From NCBI RefSeq assembly GCF_020171845.1, contig NZ_JAIVAM010000005.1, forward strand, positions 186,001 through 250,000: 64,000 nt of DNA. Direction: 5' to 3'. Positions 24,186 through 36,315 of the stretch are shown piece after piece (position 1 is the first letter of the stretch; the number at the start of each line of letters is the position of its first letter). Both the position numbers and the translations under genes were made by a program. The notes below the pieces were generated by a model, which was not told the DNA's origin, did no database searches, and saw only the letters and a program-made list of their open reading frames with translations. This stretch comes from Cytobacillus kochii (GTDB lineage: Bacteria > Bacillota > Bacilli > Bacillales > Cytobacillaceae).

Positions 24186-27100
24186 TCATGCGGGGGACTC
24201 TTGACTCTTCCTGTCATTCTCAATTTGCTTCATCTCCTTTAACGATAATAATTGATCCATCATTGTTCCTATTACTACAGAATGTGGAGATTCCAGTAAA
24301 TTATTATGATTACCATCAACTGGTATGACCGTTACCTTGCCTAACGTCCTATTCCGCCAAATGTTTTCATCTACAAGTGCATGAGGCTGAGTCTCATCAA
24401 TCTTTTGACATTTAAAAAGAATTAAATCTGAAGTAATTTCTTGAACAAACTTATACGACTCACATGCAATGTTATTCTTCCCCATTACTTCAATGATTCT
24501 TTTGACATCCTCTTGTTCTGAGCCTTTAGGTAGTACACCTTTTCTAATCGCTCTCTCTAAGACTTCTGCATATTTATCCTTATTTGAAAGTTGACTAAAT
24601 GCCTCTAAGTCCATCCCTAAACTATGTGCCCATACGATCAATGGATCCCTATTAGCTACTGACTGCAAGTTATGAAAAGGGTGAGCATCAAAAAGTATCA
24701 CTGATGACACATGATAGTTTCGCTCTTCTAATATTCTTGCCATTTCTACCGCAATTGTCCCACCCATGGACCAACCAGCTATTCTGTACGGACCTTCTGT
24801 TTGAATTTTTAATACTTCCTCCACATATTTAACTGCCATTTCTTGTATAGTACTTAATGGTTGCTGATTATCTCCATATCCAATGGATTCTATTCCATAT
24901 ATAGTAAGATTTATAGACATATCTTTCACGAGAGGCATATAACAGAGTGCCCCCCCACCTCCCGGATGAATCAAAAATAATGGGGGGTGAGTTGTATCTG
25001 ATTGCTTTAAAACAACTACATTATTATCAACTTTCACTTTGTTGCCATCTTCAATAAATTCACTCAATTGCTCAATCGTTCTATACTTAAATAAATCAGA
25101 AATCGTCATACTGATATTAAACTCTTTTCGAACGGCAGCAACTACTTCAATGGCTTTTATACTGTAACCACCGAGATCAAAGAAATCCTCTTTAACCCCC
25201 AATTCTTTAATACCTAATACCTCTTGCCAAATGTGACAAAGTTTGATTTCCACATGGCTCTTTGGCATTAACTTCACTTTGCTCACAAGGTCATTTCGCT
25301 CAAAAGGCAATTCGTTGACGAGAAGTTTACCATTTGAGGAGAGGGGGATTTCATCCACCCAAACAAAGGATGCTGGTACCATATAATGTGGAAGCACTTG
25401 TTGCAGTCTCCGTTTTATGTTTGCAGCTATTATTTGACTATCTTTATTTTTAACAAGAAAAGCATAGATTTGATTTTCTCCATTATTTATATGTGTAACG
25501 ACTGCAGCATCTGTTATCTCAGGGTAATCTAGAATTGTACTTTTTATCTCGTTTAATTCTATTCGAAAACCTCTAATCTTTACTTGGGAATCCTTCCTTG
25601 ATATAAACAAAAACTCATTGTTTGCCAGTTGCTTCACAATGTCCCCTGTTTTGTAAAACATTTGATTTTTTCCACTTACATCTAAAGTAATAAATGTGTT
25701 TTTTGTTAACTCTACATTGTTAATATACCCCTGTGATACACTTGGACCACCAATAAACAATTCTCCTTCAACGCCTTTAGGAACGAGTTGAAGATTCTCA
25801 TCTAATACTATTAGTTGGTAACCTCCAAAGTTTTTCCCTATTGGCATCGTTACGTTAGGGTATGTTTTACTACATATATGATAACTTGCCGCAACAGTCG
25901 CTTCTGTTGGCCCATATAAGTTGACTAGTCTTGCATCGATATTAATCGATTCATAGAATTTTTCTACTATTCTCCTATTGAGTGCTTCACCTCCTGTGAA
26001 AACCAGTCGAAGCGAGTCATTATTATTAAATAGAGATTGATCATTCAATTTATCTATTAAACTATGAAACAGCTGTGCTCTCGTGACTCTTTCTTGATAC
26101 ATTAAATTCGCTAAATAAGCGATATCAAATTGATTCTCTTGTTTCGTGAGAACCAATGTTCCTCCTCCTATCAGCGAACCAAATATTTCGGTTATTGACG
26201 CATCAAAAGTAAAATTTATGTTTTGTAAGACCCTTTCACTTTCTTGATAAGGAAACACTTCTAAGTAATCATCAATATGATTGAGCAATGATGCATGTGT
26301 AACTTTAACTCCTTTTGGTTTGCCGGATGAACCCGATGTATATATTACATATGCTAGCATCTCATCTGGAGGCAATTCCTTTAAACACAGGAGTGGTTTA
26401 TCCAGCTCTGATTGCATTGCCTCTTTTATGTTTATAATCTGATAAGGGACCCCATGTTGATTCACTACTTTATCAGTCAACAAAAGCGGGGCATTTGCAT
26501 CACTAAGCATATAATTCATCCTGTTTACAGGAAGCGCTGGATCAATTGGTAAATACGCACACCCGCTTTTGATAATTCCCAATATTGCCGCTATTTGCTC
26601 TAAAGTCCGACTCATCGAAAGACCTATTATGCTCCCTTGTTTACTACCGTTTCTTCTTATTATGGCTGCAATCTGATTACTCTTTCTCTCCAATTCTGCA
26701 AAAGTATAACTGCCTGAATCTGTTTTGACAGCGCAGGCATTTGGCTTATAAAGAGAGTGATAGGCAATCCTATCATGGATATAAGATGGCGGCCTTCCCT
26801 TCATATTAAAGCTTGTTAATTCGGCAATTTCATGTTTACTCATAAAGCTCAATTTAGATATTGGCTTATTAGGATCCGCCATAATATCTTGAACTAATTG
26901 AATATAATGATTAATGAACCTTTCCATTGATTGCTTGCTTAAAATATCAGGGTTGTACTCAATTTCTGCATATGCTTGATTTCCTTCAGCATTTATATAC
27001 AGGACCTTATCAAACTTTGATGTACCTGTATTAATTTTTTCATACTCGACCTTTAAACATTGTTCACCTTCTGTTCCTTGCTCATGGTAAGTAAATAGAA

Positions 27101-36315: not shown

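Follow-up and report, generated by a model that had tools for sequence, protein, structure and literature searches.

A conserved NRPS gene cluster of Cytobacillus kochii combining a putative 2,3-diamino acid pocket with a fatty-acid-type gene block

Two neighbouring minus-strand genes coding for NRPS proteins form the core of a gene cluster in the window, i.e. the whole stretch of 64,000 nucleotides from Cytobacillus kochii analysed here. The features of the cluster are listed in Table 1. Pfam assigned three A, three T and two condensation (C) domains to NRPS1, and one C, A, T and TE domain each to NRPS2. The order of domains and the lack of a starter C domain, both noted in the first-pass annotation of this DNA, were thus confirmed on both reading frames. 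The longest reading frame of NRPS1 begins at 36342, and the start given previously corresponds to the following Met at 36315. C, A and T domains ordered by module and closed by a terminal TE are the arrangement of a linear (type A) NRPS. The starter condensation domain that characterizes one type of lipopeptide NRPS does not precede A1, which begins at residue ~37 of NRPS1 (Pfam, sequence). The two proteins contain three C domains in total and no E domain, and a motif search of both found no dual C/E motif HH[IL]xxxxGD, which bears out the prediction that the NRPS performs no epimerisation.

Table 1. Genes of the cluster and its surroundings, with positions in the window.
Feature	Position	Strand	Remarks
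FabA-like (hotdog) dehydratase	7036..7467	-	
Acyl carrier protein (ACP)	7436..7711	-	motif GLDSMD
KAS III-type ketosynthase	7695..8735	-	
ThDP enzyme	8745..10442	-	Gln at expected catalytic Glu in all seven aligned clusters
ALDH-fold enzyme	10414..11640	-	catalytic Cys invariant; general-base Glu of hydrolytic ALDHs absent
Acyl-AMP ligase	11622..13058	-	
Two FabD-like acyltransferases	13072..14946	-	Ser/His present; Met or Ser at malonyl-binding Arg position
FabG-type reductase	14951..15712	-	
GNAT acyltransferase, candidate for acyl attachment	15690..16340	-	71-75% identity across core clusters
LuxR-type regulator	16565..17236	-	
Putative signal prepeptide	17248..17475	-	ends EDKPIPGHH; divergent from HTH-TPR regulator
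HTH-TPR regulator, RRNPP-like	17510..18520	+	orthologues in related clusters
GntG-family PLP aldolase, threonine-aldolase type	18507..19601	-	NF041359, 424.9 bits (cut-off 230)
ATP-grasp ligase	19543..20781	-	best solved relative: L-amino acid ligase BL00235
SbnA-like PLP enzyme (PALP)	20759..21820	-	best solved relative: SbnA
GHMP kinase, proposed amino-acid (threonine) kinase	21808..22731	-	conserved in the set
Argininosuccinate-lyase-like protein	22724..24223	-	motifs HLDRSRND, GYTHFQ, SSSMPQKRN retained
NRPS2, C-A-T-TE, module 4, 1333 aa	24186..28187	-	Pfam; C motif HHIIYDA; TE motif GWSMGG retained (motif check)
NRPS1, A-T-C-A-T-C-A-T, modules 1-3, 2722 aa	28174..36342	-	Pfam; codes by alignment
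FabF-type ketosynthase	36330..37571	-	overlaps NRPS1 start
FAD/NAD(P)-dependent oxidoreductase	37632..39194	-	of nine genomes searched, Rossellomorea and Hazenella alone have close relatives
CPA2-type cation/proton antiporter	39211..40476	-	
Phosphopantetheinyl transferase	40641..41339	+	
ABC ATPase and MacB/FtsX permease, proposed to serve export or self-protection	41472..44634	+	adjoins several related clusters
PadR-type regulator	44695..45195	+	

Scanning genomes with a nine-kinase alignment gave 80 named loci, and whole regions were then read. Brevibacillus borstelensis, B. thermoruber, a third Brevibacillus genome, Fictibacillus phosphorivorans and Rossellomorea marisflavi share the order FabF-NRPS1-NRPS2-lyase-kinase-PALP-ATP-grasp-GntG-HTH/TPR-LuxR-GNAT-FabG-FabD-FabD-AMP ligase-ALDH-ThDP-KAS III with the window. 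Note that the first FabD-like gene of the third Brevibacillus genome was displaced in the list of reading frames by an overlapping reverse-strand frame. Rearranged versions occur in Hazenella coriacea, Paludifilum halophilum and one relative of the latter. A close ALDH homologue was found in one of 193 genomes of the window's own family and in about 8 of 398 sampled Bacilli. A text search of the literature gave no usable paper on a named Brevibacillus product. The N-terminus of the NRPS varies within the family: in Hazenella, module 1 consists of a C-terminal A subdomain and T only, the A1 core being lost, and the NRPS of Paludifilum carries an N-terminal C domain, unlike NRPS1 of the window. 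In the last C domain (NRPS2, 27700-27780), the window and the core orthologues share HHxxxDA, with DA in place of DG; Paludifilum has DG.

The specificity codes of the A domains were read by means of alignment and fixed motifs; the K at the end of each code was added as the invariant Lys and not read. Re-extraction reproduced exactly the four codes reported before, namely DVWHISYIDK (A1), DDVQVSSIDK (A2), DVRHFAFLAK (A3) and DATQFGLVAK (A4). The corresponding codes of the orthologous clusters are DVWHI[SG]LIDK, DD[VI]QVSTIDK, D[VA]RHF[AS][FL]L[AI]K and D[AP][TS][QH][FI]G[LV]VAK. Because the codes are kept across the core clusters, those of A3 and A4 represent real conserved specificities and not misreadings. 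A search of the text of 5.39 million papers found none of the four codes or their orthologous versions, which is consistent with the previous statement that A3 and A4 match nothing known. For A1, DVWHISLIDK is the reading in most orthologues, and domains with a Ser code are its nearest relatives among other A domains. Codes of this kind stand for Ser; the predicted Ser-like substrate of A1, which had been proposed at the outset, is thus supported by both the orthologous codes and the nearest domains.

The genes for the lyase, the kinase, PALP, the ATP-grasp ligase and GntG directly follow NRPS2 on one strand, and the ends of neighbours overlap. The motifs retained by the lyase are those of the fumarate-releasing lyases of its superfamily. 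In the proposed route, the GHMP kinase would phosphorylate the hydroxyl of Thr or of a Thr-like amino acid. Next, the SbnA-like enzyme would swap the phosphate for the amine of an amino acid, and the lyase would release fumarate and leave the 3-amino group on the product. We infer Asp as the amine donor and Thr as the acceptor. GntG and the ATP-grasp ligase are constant partners of these genes. It counts against the scheme that neither the GntG aldolase nor the ThDP enzyme has an obvious place in it. Lineage-specific fusions, of PALP and ATP-grasp in actinomycetes and of ATP-grasp and lyase in rhizobia (L023, L019, L018), suggest that these three proteins act in one pathway. Rhizobial plasmids (Sinorhizobium, Rhizobium, Mesorhizobium; L018, L020, L021, L022) carry the kinase, PALP and the ATP-grasp/lyase fusion with no annotated NRPS nearby; one of them has GntG.

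The products of friulimicin/amphomycin clusters contain 2,3-diaminobutyrate. Cysteine-synthase and argininosuccinate-cleaving functions have been described for the friulimicin-type dabABC genes (PMC11117518). As in the window, cysteine-synthase-like, argininosuccinate-lyase-like, ATP-grasp and kinase genes lie beside the NRPS. One cluster for gausemycin, which contains 2,3-diaminobutyrate, likewise has cysteine-synthase and lyase genes, but a second cluster described for gausemycin is without them, which counts against the scheme (PMC12471526). The L-Dap route of staphyloferrin B (SbnI, SbnA, SbnB) is similar in that an amino acid kinase is combined with an SbnA-type beta-replacement: the kinase SbnI can form O-phospho-L-serine, and SbnA is reported to use this compound together with glutamate (PMC12414870). 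It differs in that the kinase of the window is of the GHMP type, that a lyase occurs instead of SbnB, that Thr and not Ser is the inferred substrate, and that the product would be passed to an NRPS.

The relation between this gene set and the pocket of A2 was assessed in 398 evenly drawn Bacilli genomes, with A2 as the query and a strict cut-off. Matches were found in 27 genomes, 22 of which carry domains of the type DDVQ[VIL]S[ST]ID; in one genus among these carriers, a few extra domains read DDCTGSTID. Domains with the code DDLFFSSID (five genomes of one genus) pass the A2 threshold at ~46% identity and were found without a kinase or GntG match. They were regarded as having a different specificity and excluded from the A2-type count, a decision that was made after the codes were seen. 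The kinase is present in 19 of the 22 genomes with the pocket versus 15 of the 376 without (Fisher test, 1.9e-20), and in each of the 19 at least one kinase copy lies about 10-20 kb or less from the pocket. As the sampled genomes are related, the figure at the level of genera is the fairer one: 9/10 with the pocket versus 6/136 without (Fisher test, 7e-10). The three pocket genomes without a kinase belong to one genus; the two inspected hold lyase-PALP-ATP-grasp-GntG at a separate locus, and the third has a GntG match.

The combination also occurs in another phylum. A plasmid of Streptomyces globosus (NZ_CP030864.1) contains an A domain with the pocket DDLQVSTID beside a lyase-kinase-PALP/ATP-grasp-GntG set, which argues against simple inheritance within Bacilli. 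This locus differs from the window in that PALP and ATP-grasp are fused, a fatty-acid-type block is missing, and the remaining modules have Thr and Ser codes as well as DVQYQALGA and DVLDSGSVA. Taken as a predicted specificity, a 2,3-diaminobutyrate-type pocket of A2 is therefore strongly supported. The first-pass annotation had suggested a diamino acid such as 2,3-diaminobutyrate on account of the SSID tail, which it likened to that of 2,4-diaminobutyrate codes. The suggested type of residue is supported; the co-occurring gene set is the better argument for it, and the tail the weaker one. 2,4-diaminobutyrate itself was set aside as the residue of A2 because of the downstream gene set.

The pocket of A2 is not that of the friulimicin/amphomycin systems, which read DIWQSTADD, have no GntG and contain far larger NRPSs than the window. 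The ATP-grasp and the kinase of their set were observed in Streptomyces canus, an amphomycin source whose locus we assign to amphomycin by species name only, and in other loci. In 20 loci, including that of S. canus, the kinase set lacks GntG and goes with DIWQSTADD or a similar pocket. Among the GntG loci with a readable pocket, eight of nine have DDVQ-S-ID, whereas loci with DIWQSTADD-type pockets alone number 20 without and one with GntG (Fisher test, 1.3e-5, a value that counts related loci singly and hence overstates the significance). As GntG tracks the DDVQ-S-ID pocket and is absent with DIWQSTADD, and as the two pockets are very unlike, the GntG version may yield a different isomer or homologue. 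The gene set would then make another 2,3-diamino acid, i.e. a further stereoisomer or a homologue formed by GntG from glycine and another aldehyde, and A2 would be tuned to this compound instead of amphomycin-type 2,3-diaminobutyrate. We consider this possible but rather doubtful, as both versions have the remaining enzymes in common and GntG could instead supply threonine or allo-threonine. Moreover, one genome (G604) and a second locus of another (G684) have the kinase near an A2-type domain and no GntG nearby.

The second conspicuous part of the cluster is the fatty-acid-type block, which is conserved together with the NRPS in Brevibacillus (three genomes), Fictibacillus, Rossellomorea, Hazenella and Paludifilum-type genomes. 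In place of the expected motif RHE, which has the catalytic Glu, KDQ occurs in the ThDP enzyme of each of the seven aligned clusters. BbmA/CsmA and glyoxylate carboligase are among the best PDB sequence matches of this enzyme, but similarity is low and the window enzyme has Gln at the position of the Glu; a literature text search on BbmA/CsmA gave no usable paper. The ALDH protein is unlike hydrolytic aldehyde dehydrogenases: Cys211 is invariant and the position of the Glu aligns with Phe or Gly. Because the Cys is kept and the general base is replaced, the sequence suggests an exchange between aldehyde and thioester and not an oxidation to the acid; the predicted structure confirms the ALDH fold only. 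For the FabD-like proteins, the malonyl-binding Arg position is that of E. coli FabD. In another small cluster with no NRPS seen (L151-L153, L154-L156, L161-L162), the ALDH gene adjoins that of the ThDP enzyme, together with distant FabF-like and AMP-ligase-like genes, ABC genes and a luciferase-like protein. Fictibacillus (L123, 16370-17383) and Rossellomorea (L126, minus strand) have a further FabF-like gene beside that of the ACP. This gene, chain-length-factor-like in that it apparently lacks the active-site Cys, has no counterpart in the window.

Most likely, this block makes an acyl group. The ThDP enzyme would convert a 2-oxo acid to an aldehyde, and ALDH and the AMP ligase would convert the aldehyde to a thioester or catalyze the reverse. 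Extension would follow by KAS III/FabF, FabG and the FabA-like enzyme. In one genome (G660), AMP ligase-ALDH-ThDP-FabF-hotdog genes directly precede the gene of a 7517-aa NRPS, which has an N-terminal C domain and other codes; this neighbourhood supports the role of the block as an acyl-group maker. It counts against the scheme that no ACP or hotdog gene adjoins the block in B. borstelensis and B. thermoruber. The block could alternatively supply A3 or A4 with an unusual amino acid, e.g. a long-chain or oxo compound, and not make an N-terminal acyl group. Both pockets are conserved and have no assigned residue, and the AMP ligase-ALDH-ThDP unit is still present in Hazenella, where the A1 core is missing and the stretch, as far as it was read, has no GNAT, KAS III or ACP gene. 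We nevertheless judge this alternative unlikely, since in G660 the same unit goes with an NRPS of different codes, and since an A3-type pocket occurs in Aneurinibacillus, in whose genome no close match to the ALDH was found.

If the block makes an acyl group, it is plausible that the chain is joined by a route other than a starter C domain, as the first-pass annotation had argued. As this domain is absent, either GNAT or a FabD-like enzyme would probably transfer the acyl group. GNAT is the best candidate. Its identity among the core clusters is above that of most partner proteins, a degree of conservation that suits a biosynthetic enzyme. Its best solved relatives are polyamine acetyltransferases, and it may alternatively serve self-protection or acetylation. 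The AlphaFold model of GNAT (mean pLDDT 61) was too poor to use.

We thus consider it probable that the cluster produces a small lipopeptide. The NRPS would join Ser (A1), a residue of the 2,3-diaminobutyrate type (A2) and the two residues selected by A3 and A4, and the TE would release the finished lipopeptide. The acyl group would come from the AMP ligase, the non-hydrolytic ALDH, the ThDP enzyme, KAS III, FabF, FabG, the FabA-like enzyme, the ACP and the two FabD-like proteins. What the analysis shows is the domain order, the codes, their conservation and the co-occurrence of pocket and gene set; the reactions, the acyl transfer and the product are predictions. A standard tetrapeptide synthetase with neighbouring genes that belong to other pathways is highly improbable, given that the gene order is kept over about 30 kb between Brevibacillus, Fictibacillus, Rossellomorea and the window at about 45-75% protein identity, and given the statistical link between the A2 pocket and the gene set. 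A more far-reaching version of the lipopeptide reading is tentative. It holds jointly that the GntG-containing 2,3-diaminobutyrate route leads to a new diamino isomer or homologue, which is read by the DDVQ-S-ID pocket, and that the acyl group is made by a ThDP enzyme without the usual Glu and a non-hydrolytic ALDH and is transferred by GNAT in place of a starter C domain. On the whole, the observation made at the outset was confirmed, and its interpretation proved mostly sound and was supported in part.

The cluster also contains an HTH plus TPR receptor gene with a small prepeptide gene adjoining, which is the arrangement of RRNPP systems. The counterparts of the prepeptide in Rossellomorea and Fictibacillus end with DDPIIGHH, and a search of the Brevibacillus clusters with this pattern found none. 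Rfam gave no match. The arrangement of these genes suggests an RRNPP quorum-sensing switch for the cluster.

New in this analysis are the test that links the A2 pocket to the gene set, the conserved cluster family and the reading of the acyl block. The correspondence between the DDVQ[VIL]S[ST]ID pocket and the lyase-kinase-PALP-ATP-grasp-GntG set is a testable specificity rule, which can be used on other NRPS clusters. In Bacilli, the clusters constitute a rare family with an unusual block that would make the acyl group and with its own candidate signalling peptide, which might activate the cluster.
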